Part shown: positions 3,622-29,469 of the stretch, piece by piece
How the letters are laid out: every line of letters starts with the position of its first letter
Position numbering within the stretch: the first letter of the stretch is position 1
Assembly: GCA_021850865.1 (NCBI GenBank)
Contig: JAJZKN010000005.1
Span: forward strand, 1-37,596
Direction: 5' to 3'
Origin: a bacterium
Lineage (GTDB): Bacteria > Patescibacteriota > Saccharimonadia > Saccharimonadales > UBA4665
Length of the DNA: 37,596 nucleotides
Notes under the pieces: generated by a model
Told to the model about the DNA's origin: nothing
What the model saw: the letters and a program-made list of their open reading frames with translations, nothing else
Database searches by the model: none
Position numbers and translations under genes: made by a program

Positions 3622-6507
3622 ATGAGCCGATACAATCCAAAAGATATTGAGCACAAATGGCAGGAAGCCTGGGCGGCGCAGAATATTTATGCCGCAAAAG
3701 ATTTTGCTAAACGGCCTAAGTTTGTCATGCTGACCGAGTTTCCTTATCCATCCGGCAGCGGTATGCATATCGGTCATATGCGCGAATATACTCTGGGCGA
3801 CATTTTGGCCCGCCACAAACGGATGAACGGTTTTAATGTGCTCTTCCCGATGGGCTTTGACGCTTTTGGCCTGCCTACCGAAAATTATGCTATTAAGAAT
3901 AGGATATCCCCGGTCAAAGCTACCCGTGACAATATTGCCAATTTTGAACAGCAGCTTAAATCAATGGGCTTTAGTTTTGACTGGAACCGCAGCTTCAAAA
4001 CCTCAGACCCGGATTATTACCGCTGGACCCAGTGGCTGTTTCTGCGTTTCTTTGCCGCCGGAATGGCTTACCAAGAGGAAATTGCCGTCAACTGGTGTCC
4101 GTTTTGTAAGACCGGCCTGGCTAACGAAGAGGTGATCAATGGCCGACACGAGCGTTGCGACACGCCGGTCGAGAAAAAAATGCTGAAGCAATGGCTGCTA
4201 CGAATTACCGATTATGCGGATCGTCTGATTAGCGGCCTGGATAGCGTCGATTATCCGCCGTCGATTGCCGACCAGCAAGTCAACTGGATCGGCCGAAGCA
4301 AAGGCGCCGAAATTGACTTCCAACTGGAAAAATCAGCTGAAAAAATTCGCGTCTTTACTACTCGACCGGACACGATTTACGGCGCGACGTTTTTGGTGCT
4401 GGCACCCGAACATCCGCTGGTTGCCGAAGTAACCACTAAGTCCCAAAAAGAGCAAATCAACCGCTACATTAAAGCAACCCAGGCAAAAACTGATGTTGAA
4501 CGCCAAGCTGCTGCCAGTAAGGAAAAAACCGGCGTGTTTTGCGGGGCTTACGCTATTAATCCGGCCAGTCAACAACGAATTCCTATCTGGATTGCCGATT
4601 ATATCCTGATGGGATACGGTACCGGAGCAATTATGGCCGTACCGGCGCATGATGAACGGGACAGTGAGTTTGCGACTAAATATTCCCTGCCGGTTCAGCC
4701 GGTTATCGAACCGGAATACGGAGAGACAAAAACCGGCGAGATCACTAGAGACTCCATCATTGCGGTCTTAAGAAATAAAAAGACCAACGAGGTACTGTTA
4801 CTGAACTGGGGCGCTAGACAAAATCAAAGCGGCGGCCGGCTGCTGATCGGTGGCGGCATTGAACGCGACGAGGACATTGCCGCTGCGGCGCAACGCGAAA
4901 TCCGTGAAGAAACCGGCTACCGCGACGTCAGGTTTGTTCAAAGCTCAAAAGAGATCGTTCATAACCACTACTATTCGGCTGTTAAGGAACGGGACTGCTA
5001 TGCCAAAATTACCGGGTTACTGTTTGATTTGATCAGCGACGAGTTGGTCGCTCCGTCGCCGGAGCCGGGTGAAAAGGGCAAATTTCTACTAGAATGGGTG
5101 CCGGTTGAAACGGCTGCCCAGTTGATTGATGATCCGGCGCACCGACGGGTGTTTGAAGAGTTAGTGGCCAACAAAGTTTTTACCGGAGAAGGCTTGATGG
5201 TTAACAGCGGCAAGTATGACGGTCTAAACAGTGCATTAATGCGCGAACAAATCGTTGCCGACTTAGTTAAGACCCGCCAGGCCGAGGAAAAAATCAACTA
5301 CAGACTCAAAGACTGGATTTTCAGCCGTCAGCACTACTGGGGGGAACCAATACCGATCATCCATTGCCCGAAACACGGACCGGTGGCGGTGCCGGACGAC
5401 CAATTGCCGGTTAAATTGCCACCGGTAGAACATTATGAGCCGACAAACAGCGGCGAAAGCCCGCTCGGCTTAATCGAAGACTGGGTAAATGTGTCTTGCC
5501 CGGTATGTGGCGGTCCAGCTAAGCGGGAAACGGATACAATGCCGAACTGGGCGGGGAGCAGCTGGTATTATTTGCGCTACTACGATCCGCACAACGATTT
5601 AACATTTGCCGCTGGTAGCAAACTAAATTACTGGGGAATGGTTGATTTGTATCTAGGCGGTATGGAGCATACGACCCTGCATTTGCTTTATTCGCGCTTC
5701 TGGCATCAGTTTTTGTTTGATCAAGGCCTGGTGCCGACACCCGAGCCTTACGCCGCGCGCCGCGGCCAAGGTATTATTCTGGCTGCCGACAACTCAAAAA
5801 TGAGCAAAAGCAAAGGCAACGTGGTTAATCCGACGGAGATTATCGAGTCCGGATACGGCGCCGACGCGCTCAGGTTGGCGATCATTTTTTTGGCTCCTTA
5901 CGACCAGACTACTCCCTGGAGCCCCGAGGCGCTCGGCGGTACCTATCGGTTTTTGAACCGGGTTTGGACGCTGGGCGCCGAATTCCAAAATAGCGCAAAC
6001 TCCACTACCGGCCAGAAGTCGGATCTGCTGGACCGGCTTTGCAATACGGCAATAAAAAAAGTCAGCGAAGATATTAACGGTATGAACTTCAATACGGCCA
6101 TTGCGGCACTAATGGAATACGTCAACGGCCTGTATAAGTTTAAGACTGAAGACAAATTTACTTCCGGGAACTGGTTGAGCGCGCTACAAGTGTTAGCCAA
6201 GCTGCTGGCGCCGTTCGCGCCGCACCTGAGCGAGCAGTTATGGCAAGAGCTGGGCAACGACGGCAGTATCCACCTGAGCGATTGGCCGAAGTGGGACCCG
6301 AAGTTTGTTAATCGTCAGGTTACCGTTATTGCCGTTCAAATCAACGGCAAGCTGAGGGGCGAACTGGAAGTCGAAGCCGGCATAACCCAGGAAGAAACTC
6401 TTAAATTAGTCGAGCAAGAGCCGAAACTGCAAACACAGCTGGCCGGGAAAGAAATTAAACGGGTAATTTTTGTTCAAGACAAGCTGATTAGCCTGGTCGT
6501 TACTTAA
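3622..6507 (+). CDS. leuS: leucyl-tRNA synthetase with inserted Nudix domain
   Basis: Class Ia synthetase of 961 residues that charges tRNA-Leu. HIGH is at 49-52, KMSKS at 726-730, a zinc-type CPFC at 159-162, and the CP1 editing domain is marked by TTRPDTIYG and GTGAIMAVPAHDERD. The odd part is at about 371-515. Between the usual end of the editing core (PVQPVIEP) and the usual resumption (FTGEGLMVNSG) sits an entire Nudix domain, where typical LeuRS has about 20 residues. Its Nudix box is complete: G411, E417, R425-E426, E429-E430, G432. The frame runs open through the insertion, so this is a fusion and not an assembly break. The anticodon-binding and C-terminal domains are present, ending around IFVQDKLISLVV. 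Confidence 0.97.
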   Translation: MSRYNPKDIEHKWQEAWAAQNIYAAKDFAKRPKFVMLTEFPYPSGSGMHIGHMREYTLGDILARHKRMNGFNVLFPMGFDAFGLPTENYAIKNRISPVKATRDNIANFEQQLKSMGFSFDWNRSFKTSDPDYYRWTQWLFLRFFAAGMAYQEEIAVNWCPFCKTGLANEEVINGRHERCDTPVEKKMLKQWLLRITDYADRLISGLDSVDYPPSIADQQVNWIGRSKGAEIDFQLEKSAEKIRVFTTRPDTIYGATFLVLAPEHPLVAEVTTKSQKEQINRYIKATQAKTDVERQAAASKEKTGVFCGAYAINPASQQRIPIWIADYILMGYGTGAIMAVPAHDERDSEFATKYSLPVQPVIEPEYGETKTGEITRDSIIAVLRNKKTNEVLLLNWGARQNQSGGRLLIGGGIERDEDIAAAAQREIREETGYRDVRFVQSSKEIVHNHYYSAVKERDCYAKITGLLFDLISDELVAPSPEPGEKGKFLLEWVPVETAAQLIDDPAHRRVFEELVANKVFTGEGLMVNSGKYDGLNSALMREQIVADLVKTRQAEEKINYRLKDWIFSRQHYWGEPIPIIHCPKHGPVAVPDDQLPVKLPPVEHYEPTNSGESPLGLIEDWVNVSCPVCGGPAKRETDTMPNWAGSSWYYLRYYDPHNDLTFAAGSKLNYWGMVDLYLGGMEHTTLHLLYSRFWHQFLFDQGLVPTPEPYAARRGQGIILAADNSKMSKSKGNVVNPTEIIESGYGADALRLAIIFLAPYDQTTPWSPEALGGTYRFLNRVWTLGAEFQNSANSTTGQKSDLLDRLCNTAIKKVSEDINGMNFNTAIAALMEYVNGLYKFKTEDKFTSGNWLSALQVLAKLLAPFAPHLSEQLWQELGNDGSIHLSDWPKWDPKFVNRQVTVIAVQINGKLRGELEVEAGITQEETLKLVEQEPKLQTQLAGKEIKRVIFVQDKLISLVVT

Positions 6508-9665: not shown

Positions 9666-10319
9666 ATGAAAATTCAAATCATTACCCTGTTTCCGGAGAT
9701 ATTCGATGGGATATTCGCTGCCAGTATGCTCTACAAGGCCGCACTTAAGCAGATTGTCAGTTATGAAATTATTAACCTGCGGGACTTTGGCCAAGGAGTT
9801 CGTTACCGGGTCGACGATACGCCATACGGCGGGGGCGACGGTATGCTGCTGATGGTCGAGCCGCTGCAAAAGGCTATTGAGCTAGCCAAGTCAAACGATC
9901 CAGATGCGGCCGTGATTCTGCCAACCCCAAGAGGGTCCAGCTATAGGCAGTCGGCAGCTAAAGCTCTAGCCAAGTCCGGCCGCGGGCTGATTATTATCTG
10001 TCCGCGCTACGAAGGTTATGACGAGCGGATCGTCAACTGGGTGGACTACCAGTTTAGTATCGGCAATTTTATTTTGACCGGGGGCGAACTGCCGGCGGCG
10101 GTTATTATTGATTCGGTCGTCAGGCTTCTGCCCGGCGTATTGGGCGGTGCCAGTTCGGCGGAAATCGAATCTTTTCAGCAGAACGATATGAACATTGAAT
10201 TTCCGCAGTACACCCGGCCGGAAGAATTTATGGGCTACCGGGTGCCGAAGGTACTATTGAGCGGTAACCATGCCAAAATTGCCGCATGGCGGCAAAAACA
10301 CTCCGCTTCCGGCGATTAG
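9666..10319 (+). CDS. trmD: tRNA (guanine37-N1)-methyltransferase
   Basis: SPOUT-class methyltransferase that makes m1G37 in tRNAs and prevents +1 frameshifting. The sequence starts MKIQIITLFPEIF, has DTPYGGGDGM at 51-60, PRYEGYDER at 113-121, and the SAM-binding trefoil knot GNFILTGGELPA at 133-144. The catalytic Asp is in IDSVVRLLPGVLG at about 149. At 217 residues it is slightly shorter than the usual 230-250, trimmed at the C-terminus. It begins 9 bases after khpA and ends the translation block; rplS does not follow in this window. Confidence 0.96.
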   Translation: MKIQIITLFPEIFDGIFAASMLYKAALKQIVSYEIINLRDFGQGVRYRVDDTPYGGGDGMLLMVEPLQKAIELAKSNDPDAAVILPTPRGSSYRQSAAKALAKSGRGLIIICPRYEGYDERIVNWVDYQFSIGNFILTGGELPAAVIIDSVVRLLPGVLGGASSAEIESFQQNDMNIEFPQYTRPEEFMGYRVPKVLLSGNHAKIAAWRQKHSASGD

Positions 10320-10339
10320 TCCATAGCAATCTAGTTAAA

Positions 10340-10786
10340 CTAAAATGTTTGTCTTAGGGCGGTCTGCCGCTGCTTAGCTACGCTCTGCCTTAGATCAACC
10401 GCGAGACTGGTAATTTCCGCGTTGCATTCCAGCCGGCTGATGAGAGATTTCGGTCGAATGCCGCCGGTAATTGCCCGGATCCTTTCTCTTTTGGTAGTGC
10501 CGCCCGCCACGCCTTCAACCTCTTGTACTCTCAGTGCATAGTCCAGACAGTTTTCCATGCATCGGCAACCGAGGCAATAAGCCTTAGCCAGTTTCTGATC
10601 CTTGGCGTCTTCACTTATGAAAATACTCCTTGGGACTGCATAATTACAGTTCATTAAGGCCGGGTTCAAACTGTTTAGCGCATTAAACGACTCCGGAATA
10701 GGCACGAAGCCCGGTCGTCCATCGGGCTTTTCGCCGGAGTGCTCTAGATTAGCGCTAACTTCACCTAATGTTTCCCAGCTGGCCAT
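10340..10786 (-). CDS. WhiB-like iron-sulfur regulator
   Basis: A 148-residue protein with the WhiB arrangement. Cys47 is followed by C71-x2-C74-x5-C80 in CLGCRCMENCLDYAL, then GVAGG at 92-96 (G[VI]WGG in WhiB) and a basic TTKRERIR stretch for DNA contact. The four cysteines would bind a [4Fe-4S] cluster sensing oxygen or nitric oxide. Trp in the turn is replaced by Ala, and there are extra cysteines at 76 and 121. I chose the ATG at 10786 because AAGAAGG precedes it and a sigma70 promoter lies over the longer TTG-started alternative (10837). It is divergent from the nickel SOD gene. WhiB proteins are otherwise regarded as actinobacterial. Confidence 0.8.
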   Translation of the reverse strand: MASWETLGEVSANLEHSGEKPDGRPGFVPIPESFNALNSLNPALMNCNYAVPRSIFISEDAKDQKLAKAYCLGCRCMENCLDYALRVQEVEGVAGGTTKRERIRAITGGIRPKSLISRLECNAEITSLAVDLRQSVAKQRQTALRQTF

Positions 10787-10808
10787 ATTTACCTTCTTAT
10801 AAATAGGC

Positions 10809-10837
10809 AGCATAGTCATTTCTTTAGTAAATTGCAA
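10809..10837 (-). promoter_or_regulatory. promoter of the WhiB-like gene
   Basis: On the minus strand TTGCAA (10837-10832) and TATGCT (10814-10809) are spaced by exactly 17 bases, with TG three bases before the -10 as in extended promoters. The ATG at 10786 follows with an AAGAAGG site between. This placement argues against the longer upstream starts. Confidence 0.55.
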
Positions 10838-10946
10838 GTGTCTTTATGGTTAACCTTTCGCCGACTGTAAGCTGCGGCTCTGAATTTAAGATGCTCCGCC
10901 GCGCGCTATAATCCGGCTGCGCACCGGTTTAGTTATCGTGTTGCTA

Positions 10947-10952
10947 TATAAT
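10947..10952 (+). promoter_or_regulatory. -10 element of sodN
   Basis: TATAAT at 10947-10952, with a GGAGG ribosome binding site at 10976-10980, seven bases before the sodN ATG. The divergent WhiB-like promoter is about 110 bases away, so the region between 10838 and 10946 could hold shared control sites; none was recognised. Confidence 0.55.
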
Positions 10953-10987
10953 AGAGCTTAAGCTATTAGAATAACGGAGGTTAATCA

Positions 10988-11374
10988 ATGAAACTGTTAA
11001 GTATTATTAAGCCCGTATATGCACACTGTGACTTGCCGTGCGGCGTTTATGATCCGGCGCAAGCCGGAATCGAAGCCGAAGCTATCTATGAGATCTTAAA
11101 AAAGTATGAAGCGCTGGGCGAGCATGACAAAACCAGGGCCATTATTATCAAAGAAGAACGGGCGGAACTGGTCAAACATCATTTAATGGTGCTTTGGGCG
11201 GATTACTTCAAACCAGAGCACATTGAGAAGTACCCTGAGCTGCATGAGATGTTCTGGAAGGCAATCAGGCAGGCTAGTGCCTGCAAGCGTCACCTTGACC
11301 CGGAAGAAGGCCGAAAACTGGTCGAGCAAATTGACGGCATTGCCAAGATTTTCTGGGAAACCAAACAGGCGTAG
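10988..11374 (+). CDS. sodN: nickel superoxide dismutase
   Basis: Ni-containing superoxide dismutase, 128 residues. After a 12-residue leader (MKLLSIIKPVYA) comes the nickel hook HCDLPCGVYDP. Cleavage before His13 would free the N-terminal His1, and Cys2, Cys6 and Tyr9 of the mature protein are all present. The remaining ~105 residues are the four-helix bundle of the family. The leader is short and not a Sec signal, so the enzyme should stay in the cytosol. The processing protease is encoded four bases downstream. A strong GGAGG site fixes the start. No nickel transporter is seen nearby. Confidence 0.95.
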   Translation: MKLLSIIKPVYAHCDLPCGVYDPAQAGIEAEAIYEILKKYEALGEHDKTRAIIIKEERAELVKHHLMVLWADYFKPEHIEKYPELHEMFWKAIRQASACKRHLDPEEGRKLVEQIDGIAKIFWETKQA

Positions 11375-11378
11375 ACCG

Positions 11379-11732
11379 ATGCCGGTTGTGCTATTGCGCC
11401 GGATCGTCGGACTAAGTATGGCTCCGACCTTGAGCGAGGGTCGGTTGGTGCTCGGACTGACCGGAGTTAAAAAGGTTAAGGTCGGCCAAGTTTATGTATA
11501 TACACAAGACGGACGGGAAGTAATCAAACGCTTAACGCAAGTCCGTGGCGAAGAGATGTTTTTTGTCGGCGATAACCGTGCTTTGAGTAGCGACAGCCGG
11601 ACATTCGGTTGGGTTGGTCCAGACCGGCTGATTGCTCGGGTGATCTGGCCGCCGGCTAAACGGCCATCAGGCTTCGATGTGTCTGAATCTGAAAGCGCCA
11701 AATCCGACCAAAACAACCAGGGTAATCGCTAA
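11379..11732 (+). CDS. sodX: nickel-type SOD maturation protease SodX
   Basis: S26-family peptidase of 117 residues, matching the small soluble proteases that remove the SodN leader. The catalytic Ser13 lies in GLSMAPTL and the general-base Lys50 in EVIKRL, followed by FVGDNRALSSDSRTFGWV. The start at 11379 is chosen because upstream codons in this frame overlap sodN and do not look like signal peptidase. The last 66 bases overlap the end of the oppositely oriented ABC permease gene, and this overlapping tail (Ser/Asn/Gln-rich) is probably dispensable. It is unlike type I signal peptidase in having no membrane anchor. Confidence 0.9.
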   Translation: MPVVLLRRIVGLSMAPTLSEGRLVLGLTGVKKVKVGQVYVYTQDGREVIKRLTQVRGEEMFFVGDNRALSSDSRTFGWVGPDRLIARVIWPPAKRPSGFDVSESESAKSDQNNQGNR

Positions 11733-15944: not shown

Positions 15945-17021
15945 ATGAACGCCAGCCGCCCGTCCAGTTACGGTTTTTATCCGAGACAACCCTTAGTTAC
16001 TAAACCCCCGGTGAAAAAATCTACCGTCGGAGGGTATGTCAAACTATTCGCCGTCATCATTCTGGCCGCCGGTTTGATCTGGTGCGGTTTGTTTATTAGC
16101 AGTTTGGGGGCAGTTAGCGCCGACAGTCTGCAGCCGCAAATTAGAGTAGATGTCGGAGATAATTGCCTGGACGATTACCATGGCCAGCTGAAATCCGGTT
16201 CCATCGTAGATTCCTGGACATGCAATGGCACCCAATCGCAAGCGTGGTCGTTTAGCGGCAATCTTATCAGCTTAAAAAATAAGTATTGTCTGGCCGTAAC
16301 AACCGATAATAAGACGGTTATTGAGCGTTGTTCGGTTACGGCCCACAACCAATCTTGGAGCAGGGACGGAGTCGGCCTGGTGAATAACGGGAATCACCGG
16401 TGTCTTTCTTTGCCCGCCGGCAAAACAAAAGTCCAGCTGATTACCGCCAGCTGCAGCCAACTGACGTCGGTTAACGAATCGTGGACGCCGGATTATTGGT
16501 CCGGTAAACCTCTGGCGCAAATGTCCAGTCCCGCTTGCGACCAAGCTACTATCGGTGCCAGGGTCGCATGTGATGCTGAAAAACAATGGCTGGCTTGGCA
16601 GACCGAGCCGACACTGCATAGCGTACTGCTTAACTATTACACCGCCGGCAACCCTTACGAGGAATGGTGTGCTGATTTTGTCAGCTATATTTATAACGAA
16701 GCCGGAGCTCCGTTCAAGTACGGCGAGAGGGGAAACGGTTGGGATGAGTACAACGCCAACAATATCCGCTATATGGGCTTTACTTACCATCCGGCTAACG
16801 GTACATATCTCCCTCAGCCCGGCGATGTGGCATTCTTTGACTATGCCGGCGGCCATGTCGAGATCGTCGCAAAGGGCGGACCGCATCCGACTTTCATTTA
16901 TGGTGATTCCGGTACGATCGACCCCTATACCGGTAACGGCAATATGGCGGAGAACCAGATAGTTAATGATGGCAGCGCGGGTCATCTAATGTATTACCTA
17001 TCCCCCAACCCCGGTGTCTAG
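15945..17021 (+). CDS. anchored ricin-type lectin and CHAP amidase/peptidase
   Basis: A 358-residue surface protein. Residues 1-30 are cytosolic, about 31-57 form a membrane anchor or uncleaved signal, 62-185 are a ricin B-like (beta-trefoil) sugar-binding region with QAW at 99-101, QSW at 136-138 and paired cysteines, and 200-355 are a CHAP domain. In the CHAP domain Cys242 (EEWCADFVSY) and His304 (AGGHVEIV) are the expected catalytic pair. CHAP enzymes cut peptidoglycan amide or peptide bonds. The lectin may aim it at wall glycans, either its own or those of a host bacterium. Confidence 0.85.
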   Translation: MNASRPSSYGFYPRQPLVTKPPVKKSTVGGYVKLFAVIILAAGLIWCGLFISSLGAVSADSLQPQIRVDVGDNCLDDYHGQLKSGSIVDSWTCNGTQSQAWSFSGNLISLKNKYCLAVTTDNKTVIERCSVTAHNQSWSRDGVGLVNNGNHRCLSLPAGKTKVQLITASCSQLTSVNESWTPDYWSGKPLAQMSSPACDQATIGARVACDAEKQWLAWQTEPTLHSVLLNYYTAGNPYEEWCADFVSYIYNEAGAPFKYGERGNGWDEYNANNIRYMGFTYHPANGTYLPQPGDVAFFDYAGGHVEIVAKGGPHPTFIYGDSGTIDPYTGNGNMAENQIVNDGSAGHLMYYLSPNPGV

Positions 17022-26673: not shown

Positions 26674-27198
26674 ATGAAGAAGTTTGTTATTGGCATTGCA
26701 GTTATTGGCATATATTTAATTTACAGCATAGGAATCAGGCACACGAACCCGATATTGCCGATTCCTTCATCACTGGCCAATGCTAAAACGAAAAGCTCCG
26801 GCAGCGGTTCGACTACTGCCGCCGCTACCTCGTCGTCTACCACATCCGGCAGCAGCAGTTCAGCTTCCGGAAGCTCGAGCGCTGCGAGCAGCCAGTCAAG
26901 CTCAAAGCCGTCCAGCGGCAAGTATAAGGACGGTACGTATACTGGCGCGACTGAAAACGCCTACTACGGCAACGTGCAAGTTTCGGTTGTCGTTTCCGGC
27001 GGCCGGATCAGCGACGTTAAGTTTTTACAATATCCTAACAGCCACTCAACTTCGGTCTACATTAACCAACAGGCAATGCCTTATTTGAAACAGGAGACAC
27101 TACAAGCTCAAAGCGCAAACGTACAATCAATTACCGGAGCTACTTTTACCTCATACGCTTTTATTCAATCACTCCACTCGGCGCTAGCTAAAGCATAA
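26674..27198 (+). CDS. exported FMN-binding domain protein
   Basis: A 174-residue electron carrier. A signal-anchor helix (4-20) is followed by a Ser-rich flexible linker (about 41-81) and an FMN_bind domain (84-173) of the NqrC/RnfG type. The motif ITGATFTS at 153-160 is the recognition site at which ApbE links FMN to Thr, here most likely Thr157. The protein should sit outside the membrane with a covalently attached flavin. The genes for its flavin transferase and for a membrane oxidoreductase follow at once. Confidence 0.88.
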   Translation: MKKFVIGIAVIGIYLIYSIGIRHTNPILPIPSSLANAKTKSSGSGSTTAAATSSSTTSGSSSSASGSSSAASSQSSSKPSSGKYKDGTYTGATENAYYGNVQVSVVVSGGRISDVKFLQYPNSHSTSVYINQQAMPYLKQETLQAQSANVQSITGATFTSYAFIQSLHSALAKA

Positions 27199-27203
27199 AA
27201 ATT

Positions 27204-27947
27204 ATGAAAAGGACCGAACTGATTATGGGCATGCCTGTCACGCTTGAGATAGCTCTGGTTAAGGAAGCCGATCCCTTTGACCAGGTATTTGCGTATTTTA
27301 AGGATGTCGATGAGCGATTCAGTCCGTATAAAAAAACCAGCGAACTTTCCTTGCTAAACGATGGGAAATTAAAGGAACCGGATTATTCGGCGGATATGCG
27401 TGAAGTCCTAGAGCTTTGCAGTGAAACCAAACGGATCAGCGGCGGCTTTTTTGATATCGTCAAAAGTAACGGCCGGCTTGACCCCTCGGGCCTGGTTAAG
27501 GGTTGGGCCATCAACCATGCCGCCAATTTATTAAGAAGTATGGGGTATGATAACTTTTGCCTCGAGGCTGGTGGGGATATTCAGACCTCTGGCCAAAACG
27601 AAGATGGCCATCCCTGGTCTATCGGCATCCGTAACCCTTTTAATATTGAGCAGATTGTCAAAGTGGTAGAACTGAGCGATCGCGCTATTGCCACCTCCGG
27701 AACATATATCCGCGGCGAGCATATCTATAATCCGCTGGCCGGATATGTCAGGCCGGCCGGAATTAAAAGTCTAAGTGTTATCGGGCTTAATATTTTCGAG
27801 GCCGACCGGTTTGCTACTGCGGCTTTTGCCATGGGTCCGGATGAAGGTTTGGCGTTTATCAGCGCATTACCGGAAATGCAAGCCTATTTAATCGGCGACG
27901 ACCAATCAGTAACCTTTACGAAAGGATTTGAGGCCTATGTGGCTTAG
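27204..27947 (+). CDS. apbE: FAD:protein FMN transferase ApbE
   Basis: ApbE cleaves FAD and attaches FMN to Thr in the target motif of flavoproteins. The 247-residue sequence has MGMPVTLEI at 9-17, ERFSPYKKTSELSLLN, DPSGLVKGWAIN, LEAGGDIQTSG and the metal-site region AIATSGTYIRG...HIYNPLAG. It lacks a signal peptide, unlike many exported ApbEs, so its export or site of action is uncertain. It lies five bases after the FMN-binding protein, its obvious substrate, and its end overlaps the start of the fused oxidoreductase gene. Confidence 0.94.
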   Translation: MKRTELIMGMPVTLEIALVKEADPFDQVFAYFKDVDERFSPYKKTSELSLLNDGKLKEPDYSADMREVLELCSETKRISGGFFDIVKSNGRLDPSGLVKGWAINHAANLLRSMGYDNFCLEAGGDIQTSGQNEDGHPWSIGIRNPFNIEQIVKVVELSDRAIATSGTYIRGEHIYNPLAGYVRPAGIKSLSVIGLNIFEADRFATAAFAMGPDEGLAFISALPEMQAYLIGDDQSVTFTKGFEAYVA

Positions 27948-29469
27948 ACTAATCGAACCGCTAGATAAAATAATTGATTCGATCACGATGTATCGTTTGT
28001 TGCTTTACTATCTGGGCGGTTTAGTCCTGGCGGCCGCTGGATTGTCGGCCGTCGGAGTTCTTCATTTCAGCGCCATATCCATTTTAATTTCGGCCATAGT
28101 TTTGGTTTTCGCCTGCTGGCTGATCAATAAAATTTTAGCTTCGATCTTTAATGCGCCAGTCAACCCCGAATCATCGATTCTAACCGGCTTGATTCTGGTT
28201 TTGATATTACCGCCGCAGCCTACCGGCTCCGGGCTGCTTTTTATGCTAGCGGCCTCCGGTCTGGCTATGGCTTCAAAGTATCTCCTGACTATTAAGCGCA
28301 AACATATTTTTAACCCGGCAGCGGTCGCCGTGGTACTGACCGCACTCGGTCCGAGGCAAAGCGCCAGTTGGTGGGTGGGTACGGCGTCGATGCTGCCGTT
28401 TGTAATTATTGGCGGTCTTTTACTGGTTAGGAAAATACGCCGCGGGCAAATGGTCAGTGTTTATCTGTTGGCAACGACGATTGTGACTGCGGTGTTTTCG
28501 ATCAGCGGCGGCCAGTTAATACCTAATATCAAAAACATGATTTTGACTTCATCCGTATTCTTTTTGGGATTTGTTATGTTAACCGAGCCGTATACTTCGC
28601 CGACTACCAGAACAAAACAGATCTGGTATGCGATTATTGTCGGAACGCTGTTGGCTCCTCAGTTTCATATCGGCAGCTATTATCCGGCGCCGGAAATGGC
28701 TCTGATCTTCGGGAATCTGTTTGCTTATCTGACTGGAGATAAAACCAAACTATATTTGAGTCTGTTCCGGAAATACAAAATAGCCGGTGATACTGCCGAA
28801 TTCTCCTTCGTCACTAACCAGAAATTTGACTACAAACCCGGCCAGTATATGGAATTTACCTTACCTCACGAGAAACCGGACTCCAGGGGGGTCAGGCGTT
28901 ACTTTACAATGTCCTCTTCACCGACTGAAGATCATTTAAAGCTGGGTGTTAAGTTTTACGAGCCGGGCAGCAGCTATAAGGCCGCTTTGCTGGATATTGA
29001 CCAGAACTCGACTTTTGTCGGAGCCCAGCTGGCCGGAGACTTTGTGCTGCCGGAGTCTGATCCGAATCAAAAGCTGTTATTTATTGCCGGCGGTATCGGC
29101 ATTACACCTTTCCGCAGCATGATCAAATACCTAATCGACAAGCATGAACGACGGGACATTATCCTGCTTTATTCGGTGCGCAGCAGTGATGATCTTGCTT
29201 ACAAGGAATTACTAGACCAGGCCGTTAAGGAAATCGGACTGAAGGTAGCCTATTTCATAACCTCCAGACAAGCGAAAGCTGTTGGCGTCAATGTTTTTCG
29301 CCAACAAATCAACCGCCGGGTATTAACCAAGCAAATTAGCGATTTAGATGAGCGCTTAATATACATTTCCGGCACTCATCCGATGGTCGAGTCAATGCAG
29401 GAACTACTTCACGAAATCGGCATAGCCCATGACCGGATCAAAATCGACTTTTTCCCGGGATATGCTTAG
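27937..29469 (+). CDS. RnfD/NqrB-like membrane domain fused to ferredoxin reductase module
   Basis: A 510-residue fusion. Residues about 20-275 hold some eight membrane helices with the RnfD/NqrB signatures SSILTGLILVLILPP, HIFNPAA and TEPYTSPTTR. From about 280 comes an FNR-like module: FAD-binding RRYFTMSSSP, NAD(P)-binding FIAGGIGITPFRSM, and a C-terminal YISGTHPMVESM and IDFFPGY. No 2Fe-2S ferredoxin motif is seen. The expected path is cytosolic NAD(P)H to FAD to membrane-bound flavin to the exported FMN protein. The ATG at 27937 (AAAGGA ten bases upstream) is preferred to TTG 27928. Whether it pumps ions is unknown. Confidence 0.88.
   Translation: MWLRLIEPLDKIIDSITMYRLLLYYLGGLVLAAAGLSAVGVLHFSAISILISAIVLVFACWLINKILASIFNAPVNPESSILTGLILVLILPPQPTGSGLLFMLAASGLAMASKYLLTIKRKHIFNPAAVAVVLTALGPRQSASWWVGTASMLPFVIIGGLLLVRKIRRGQMVSVYLLATTIVTAVFSISGGQLIPNIKNMILTSSVFFLGFVMLTEPYTSPTTRTKQIWYAIIVGTLLAPQFHIGSYYPAPEMALIFGNLFAYLTGDKTKLYLSLFRKYKIAGDTAEFSFVTNQKFDYKPGQYMEFTLPHEKPDSRGVRRYFTMSSSPTEDHLKLGVKFYEPGSSYKAALLDIDQNSTFVGAQLAGDFVLPESDPNQKLLFIAGGIGITPFRSMIKYLIDKHERRDIILLYSVRSSDDLAYKELLDQAVKEIGLKVAYFITSRQAKAVGVNVFRQQINRRVLTKQISDLDERLIYISGTHPMVESMQELLHEIGIAHDRIKIDFFPGYA

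Follow-up and report, generated by a model that had tools for sequence, protein, structure and literature searches.

A divergent WhiB-domain protein of Saccharimonadia and the occurrence of its family in the class

Background

WhiB proteins are widespread in Actinobacteria, where they serve as cluster-based redox sensors. Two reports describe them as exclusive to Actinobacteria (PMC10245118; PMC3905903). The first also gives a G[I/V]W[G/A]G beta-turn as a criterion of the family and reports that in M. tuberculosis each of the WhiB3 replacements F31A, F32A and W76A abolishes the complex with sigma, as does the change of sigma-A H516 to Ala (PMC10245118). Cultured Saccharibacteria are described as epibionts on Actinobacteria (PMC10633639). 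Our search of PMC full text, judged by titles and abstracts, found no published report of WhiB in Saccharibacteria or Patescibacteria; PMC12369343 treats the whiB of the host.

Here we consider a whiB-like gene found by a sequence-only reading of one stretch of DNA (the window, 37,596 nucleotides), which is the entire contig C8 of a 571-kb assembly that is 68% complete. We compare its product with actinobacterial WhiB-like (Wbl) proteins and with its relatives in the class Saccharimonadia.

Results

The gene and its product

The minus-strand frame 10340-10837 is open and would give 165 aa from a possible TTG start at 10837. The shorter form in Table 1 has a good ribosome-binding site (AAGAAGG five bases upstream of its ATG), and the residue numbers of the sequence-only reading match this form. 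Codon usage is best in the gene's own frame, at 0.105 bits per codon, and is the weakest when set against the 15 window genes compared (0.23-0.40 bits per codon).

Table 1. Features of the window and of WhiB loci elsewhere in Saccharimonadia
Feature	Position	Strand	Evidence and remarks
trmD, left border of variable interval	9666..10319	+	PF01746, 162 bits
whiB-like gene	10340..10786	-	148 aa from ATG 10786; stop codon 10340-10342; PF02467, ribosome-binding site, best-frame codon usage
WhiB domain	10475..10648	-	C47, C71, C74, C80 ligand set; GVAGG turn (residues 92-96); basic KRERIR (99-104); invariant alignment columns, Pfam, AlphaFold/Foldseek
C-terminal extension, residues 112-148	10343..10453	-	predicted single long helix; contains extra C121
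divergent whiB / sodN intergenic region, 201 bp	10787..10987	.	sequence read directly
sodN, nickel superoxide dismutase, divergent neighbour	10988..11374	+	PF09055, 150.7 bits; TIGR02753, 156.9 bits
S26-type peptidase on the far side of sodN, probable sodX maturation protease	11379..11732	+	PF10502, 36.5 bits
rpoD-whiB linkage, example	L371:1597-8016 (G022:C3)	same strand	whiB downstream of rpoD
further rpoD-whiB loci	L090, L092, L098, L105, L109, L119, L124, L125, L128, L136, L143, L415, L417, L419, L420, L428, L430-L433, L435, L437		
sigma-70/WhiB fusion	L108:3010-4377 (G303:C14)	-	one ORF, 455 aa from ATG

The sequence-only reading called the product WhiB-like, and the profile search that it proposed agrees: PF02467 (WhiB) matches the window protein with 43.5 bits (E 4.7e-11, cut-off 23.6), or with 45.2 bits when the whole genome is searched, the Pfam stretch being residues 64-119 of the 165-aa form. 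As a chance control, 14 control genomes were searched with the same cut-off, which was exceeded in one of them, Corynebacterium glutamicum, an actinobacterium. Most of the 11 PHROGs matches are WhiB families (best 42 bits, E 1.1e-10), and all nine phmmer matches against PDB at E<=1 are WhiB chains; the NCBIfam search of the protein gave no WhiB match. HgcB ferredoxin (NF040864) was rejected as an identity, its 19.8 bits being below the cut-off of 99 and probably a match of Cys spacing only.

An AlphaFold model, for which the window protein and 22 viral-contig WhiBs were the input, has a mean pLDDT of 74.5, with 86-91 in the core over residues 51-110. With this predicted model, Foldseek places WhiB chains at all of ranks 1-14 (best E 9.6e-4, probability 1.00). 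Of the 13 entries listed by VIA-align, 12 are WhiB1, 3, 6, 7 or S. venezuelae WhiB (Z 4.8-9.9), and the other one is the unrelated NusA (Z 2.5). The predicted fold thus resembles actinobacterial Wbl over residues 39-108, at an identity of 22-30% to the seven best structural matches.

Departures from the actinobacterial pattern

The cysteine pattern C47, C71-x2-C74-x5-C80, the CLDYAL motif, the glycine turn and the basic stretch all lie where the sequence-only reading had put them, and the four-Cys spacing, the turn and the basic residues after it are those of WhiB1, WhiB3, WhiB7 and S. venezuelae WhiB. The four ligands fit C-xn-C-x2-C-x5-C and are invariant across both alignments; near-complete Cys conservation in the 150-row Saccharimonadia set partly reflects selection by the search model. 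That set comes from a search at E<=1e-3 with a model whose input was 23 Saccharimonadia fragments, and some weak-scoring sites lie outside it (e.g., G350, G270, G225, G382, G129, G156, G160, G172, G173, G113 and G083).

The protein differs from actinobacterial Wbl in several respects. It lacks a Trp a short way ahead of its first Cys, and it carries two extra cysteines, which were counted before and are now located at 76 and 121. The replacement of the turn Trp by Ala, also noted before, is real and weightier than had been said: GVAGG agrees with G[I/V]W[G/A]G in all but the Trp, and with Ile in place of the second docking Phe the sigma-region-4 aromatics F-F-W have become F56, I57 and A94. 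These positions are those at which single Ala replacements in WhiB3 abolish the sigma complex (PMC10245118). Among the 150 Saccharimonadia WhiBs the turn position is Trp in 122 and Ala in the window protein only; Trp is absent from 28 of these rows and from 4 of 23 actinobacterial plasmid/phage rows. Considering that the Trp is absent here and is not strict in the family, we class the protein as a divergent member with a WhiB domain and not as a canonical sigma-binding Wbl. A further difference is the 37-residue C-terminal helical extension (AlphaFold helix 112-147, pLDDT about 76-95 by block); no homologue of residues 112-148 was found, and they stay unaligned in the alignment with Saccharimonadia WhiBs.

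Distribution of WhiB

At E<=0.001, WhiB was found in 14 of the 19 genomes of the window's genus, so the gene is not a lone oddity. Across the class, 109 of the 392 genomes sampled have it. In the phylum sample the family occurs in 18 of 379 genomes, all 18 from Saccharimonadia, and in none of 342 sampled Patescibacteria genomes outside the class. This census corrects the statement that WhiB is restricted to Actinobacteria; it does not exclude the window protein from the family.

The host genome

The genome was taken earlier to be non-actinobacterial, and an actinobacterial origin of the contig, named as what would overturn the reading, is not borne out. The 24 best relatives of the window trmD are 57-71% identical to it (the next match is 47%) and are titled Saccharibacteria (14), Patescibacteria group (3), Nomurabacteria (2) or only "bacterium" (5). 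It is from such titles that we read the class as Saccharimonadia. The order trmD, sodN, ABC-permease is common to the window and its congeners L150, L161 and L173, with identities of 67-68%, 74-77% and 80-81% for the three genes. From the trmD relatives and this common order it follows that the genome is not actinobacterial. Elsewhere in Saccharimonadia, whiB was found on contigs bearing a Saccharimonadia-type rpoD, and the whiB-bearing G127, G095, G114, G224 and G030 are single-contig assemblies. Together with the gene order and the identity to congeners, these observations rule out actinobacterial contamination of the bin.

Phylogeny and nearest relatives

The nearest named relatives outside the class are the WhiBs of the Kitasatospora plasmid NZ_CP108485.1 and of Mycobacterium phage MarkPhew, with an identity of 43% over 56 aa for the first and of 40% over 60 aa for the second, which makes them roughly as close as any protein from Saccharimonadia; both keep the turn Trp, whereas the window protein does not. 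By BLAST its distances to Saccharimonadia, plasmid and phage proteins are about equal (45-47 bits). Searches of 392 Saccharimonadia genomes (best 34 bits), 93 family genomes, GTDB contigs and viral contigs gave no close orthologue. Other Saccharimonadia WhiBs (for example L003, L063 and the second copy of the window genome, L374:8069-9070) have the same domain at 25-33% identity; in contrast to the window protein, most of them keep the aromatic pair and the W, many are neighbours of rpoD or have a long N-terminal region, and the window protein shares no N- or C-terminal extension with them.

A first tree (69 columns for 186 rows, one truncated duplicate having been removed beforehand) left most forks unresolved. 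A careful tree of 54 rows combined 31 of the 150 Saccharimonadia rows, chosen by eye so that the WhiB1-like, the WhiB2-like and further types were represented, with the full set of 23 actinobacterial plasmid/phage rows; it contained no row from the 13 viral contigs. In this tree Saccharimonadia and plasmid/phage rows intermix (10 changes). When the Saccharimonadia rows are forced together, the log-likelihood drops by 102 units (AU p 1.4e-6), and a single clade is rejected also without the window protein (AU p 1.3e-5). Judged from these alignments, several exchanges of WhiB between Saccharimonadia and Actinobacteria or their phages are therefore needed. Since WhiB is widespread in Actinobacteria, we infer that the transfer ran from Actinobacteria or phage to Saccharimonadia.

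The window protein itself is the longest end branch of the 54-row tree (2.18) and has no strongly supported sister there: it pairs with the Kitasatospora plasmid protein (support 91/84, not starred), which joins two long branches, and the attempt to place it failed. The sequence-only reading had offered a divergent or early branch or a transfer; for the class the phylogeny speaks for transfer and against an early branch.

The trmD-sodN interval

The interval between trmD and sodN is a variable spot in the family (window 9666-11374; L145-L174). The two genes adjoin in 25 of 29 other sodN loci. In L161 and L173 they are about 100 bp apart with nothing in between; in others various unrelated ORFs separate them. 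A conserved link of whiB to sodN is not supported by comparison: none of the 53 other trmD or sodN loci contains a WhiB, and with a gap so variable the link to sodN is not conserved. Neither an inverted repeat or operator nor a promoter signal above chance was found in the whiB-sodN intergenic region, where promoter-like sites occur at about chance level. A role as conserved regulator of sodN is not supported on these grounds. A sodN match is present in 64 of 294 Saccharimonadia genomes, and the nearest other whiB-sodN pair seen (G283) lies about 2.2 kb apart, with a WhiB that is not orthologous. The whiB-like gene is an insertion in a variable spot, its link with sodN resting on position in one genome.

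Sigma genes beside whiB

The surroundings of whiB were read in 106 WhiB-bearing genomes, in most cases 3-5 kb in each direction if the contig reached that far. A sigma-70 gene is near whiB in 25 of them; in 23 it is of the RpoD type (tail KLRKHKD), with whiB 0.2-5.2 kb downstream on the same strand. By family, 21 of these 23 genomes belong to one, one to another and one to the window's own, so descent explains much of the count. The linked WhiBs differ in type; examples are the WhiB1-like L042 and L045 and the WhiB2-like L030 and L031. No sigma gene was seen in 54 trmD or sodN control loci (290 kb).

In G303 a single frame joins sigma-70 region 2 (42.5 bits), region 3 (21.6, below cut-off) and region 4 (25.3) to a C-terminal WhiB domain (39.9 bits), and is divergent from three tandem whiB genes. 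G303 also has a separate RpoD-like gene, and the G+C of the fusion contig (0.584-0.606) is near that of the separate gene's stretch (0.557). The fusion is absent from the one other genome of its family examined.

Other domain arrangements were also seen: WhiB, Helicase_C and ResIII domains on one ORF (L014:1-1890, +, G007:C4), and WhiB towards the N-terminus of long ORFs whose later parts give weak helix-turn-helix matches (L046:430-1815, -; L121:2990-3964, +).

The RpoD tails of Saccharimonadia have K-H at the positions of M. tuberculosis H516-P517 in all 23 read, as do all 23 in whiB-linked loci, so the interface between WhiB and sigma must differ from the actinobacterial one. The rpoD of the window genome was not found in the incomplete (68%) assembly; its second WhiB, a 333-aa ORF on contig C6, keeps FF and GVWGG. 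Among other Patescibacteria, 7 of 27 RpoD-type tails (one incomplete) keep H-P and most others are without it; since the loss is common there, the K-H tail is not a mark of WhiB use. As an observation in its own right, the H-P of the canonical sigma-70 tail was lost in several different ways in most Patescibacteria RpoD read (L341-L370).

Discussion

We believe that the explanation accounting best for these observations overall, and one to which we give about even credence, is that the window protein is a divergent WhiB which Saccharimonadia acquired from the pool carried by Actinobacteria, phages and plasmids. It has the four ligand cysteines and the predicted WhiB fold and would carry a [4Fe-4S] cluster; it may bind DNA through the basic stretch and perhaps also through the added C-terminal helix. 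With two of the three aromatics lost, it presumably does not dock sigma region 4 in the usual way. Loss of docking along with cluster and DNA binding would point to local redox-sensitive action as a repressor or accessory regulator, the likeliest targets being the promoter of the gene itself and that of sodN opposite. Against this explanation, the best matches reach about 47 BLAST bits, and there is no orthologue to show selection on the window copy; the chance-level promoter-like sites and the lack of an operator-like repeat between whiB and sodN also count against it.

Alternatively, the gene could be a paralogue in decay or without function that entered the variable interval recently and is drifting. 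The weakest codon usage of the window genes compared makes decay possible, and the longest end branch, the want of a close orthologue in the 392 class genomes and a gap that elsewhere is empty or filled with unrelated ORFs agree with it. However, drift should erode the open frame of 148 codons, the ribosome-binding site, the four ligands and the basic stretch, all of which are intact, and we consider decay unlikely. The Trp is missing in enough relatives, within the class and on plasmids and phages, that its loss need not mean the loss of sigma binding, and the protein might be an ordinary sigma-dependent WhiB with docking remodelled on the Saccharimonadia RpoD, the Ala offsetting a K-H in place of H-P. 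The K-H tail, found wherever it was read in the class, does make for a different interface anyway; but it coexists with Trp in 122 of the 150 WhiBs and so does not require Ala, most tails of other Patescibacteria, from sampled groups free of WhiB, also lack H-P, so that the tail is no response to WhiB, and the window genome's own RpoD is missing from the comparison. This makes sigma-dependent action rather unlikely in our estimate.

A dedicated redox regulator of sodN-sodX, kept for that link, would suit the divergent orientation across a common 201-bp intergenic region and the redox sensing of the family. The want of WhiB at all 53 other trmD or sodN loci, the sodN match in 64 of 294 class genomes and the distance and non-orthologous WhiB of the G283 pair make it improbable. 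Delivery of the protein into an actinobacterial host, to act on the host's sigma or promoters, is recommended by the epibiotic life of cultured Saccharibacteria (PMC10633639) and by H516, which the M. tuberculosis sigma has and WhiB3 needs (PMC10245118), and which the Saccharimonadia sigma is without. We find it hardly credible: the window copy lacks the residues needed to hold a host sigma, whiB adjoins or is fused to the organism's own sigma genes, which points to action inside the cell, and the sigma tails of other Patescibacteria vary too.

We thus return to a divergent WhiB without the usual docking as the preferred reading. In this protein nature offers an equivalent of the WhiB3 laboratory mutant W76A, and with it one can test whether a WhiB is able to function when it does not dock sigma. 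The other Saccharimonadia WhiBs, the second copy of the window genome included, probably act via the organism's own RpoD, because they keep the aromatic set, lie downstream of rpoD in 23 of the 106 genomes read and in one case are fused to a sigma factor. As independent genomic evidence, linkage and fusion support the partnership with sigma that is known in mycobacteria.

We would tentatively go further, with less than even confidence, and propose that Saccharimonadia built a sigma-WhiB control of their own from repeatedly captured actinobacterial and phage whiB genes. Various types would have come to lie beside rpoD, one would have fused to a sigma-70, the interface would have been remade around the K-H tail, and side branches like the window protein, having no sigma docking, would act as stand-alone Fe-S DNA-binding regulators.

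The window protein belongs to a wider Saccharimonadia WhiB pattern, of which our PMC search found no description; automatic annotation may already name such Saccharibacteria proteins WhiB. Within the sampled phylum, WhiB is confined to a class whose cultured representatives have Actinobacteria as their hosts, which ties a regulatory family to ecology.

Three other genes or groups of genes in the window deserve mention. A leucyl-tRNA synthetase (3622-6507, +) has a NUDIX domain (50.6 bits, residues 376-513) beside its editing domain. Ricin-B-type lectin and CHAP domains occur together at 15945-17021 (+), in a candidate secreted enzyme acting on the cell wall. An FMN_bind protein, an ApbE protein and a fusion of NQR2/RnfD with a reductase stand in a row at 26674-29469 (+), which suggests a small flavin electron-transfer system.
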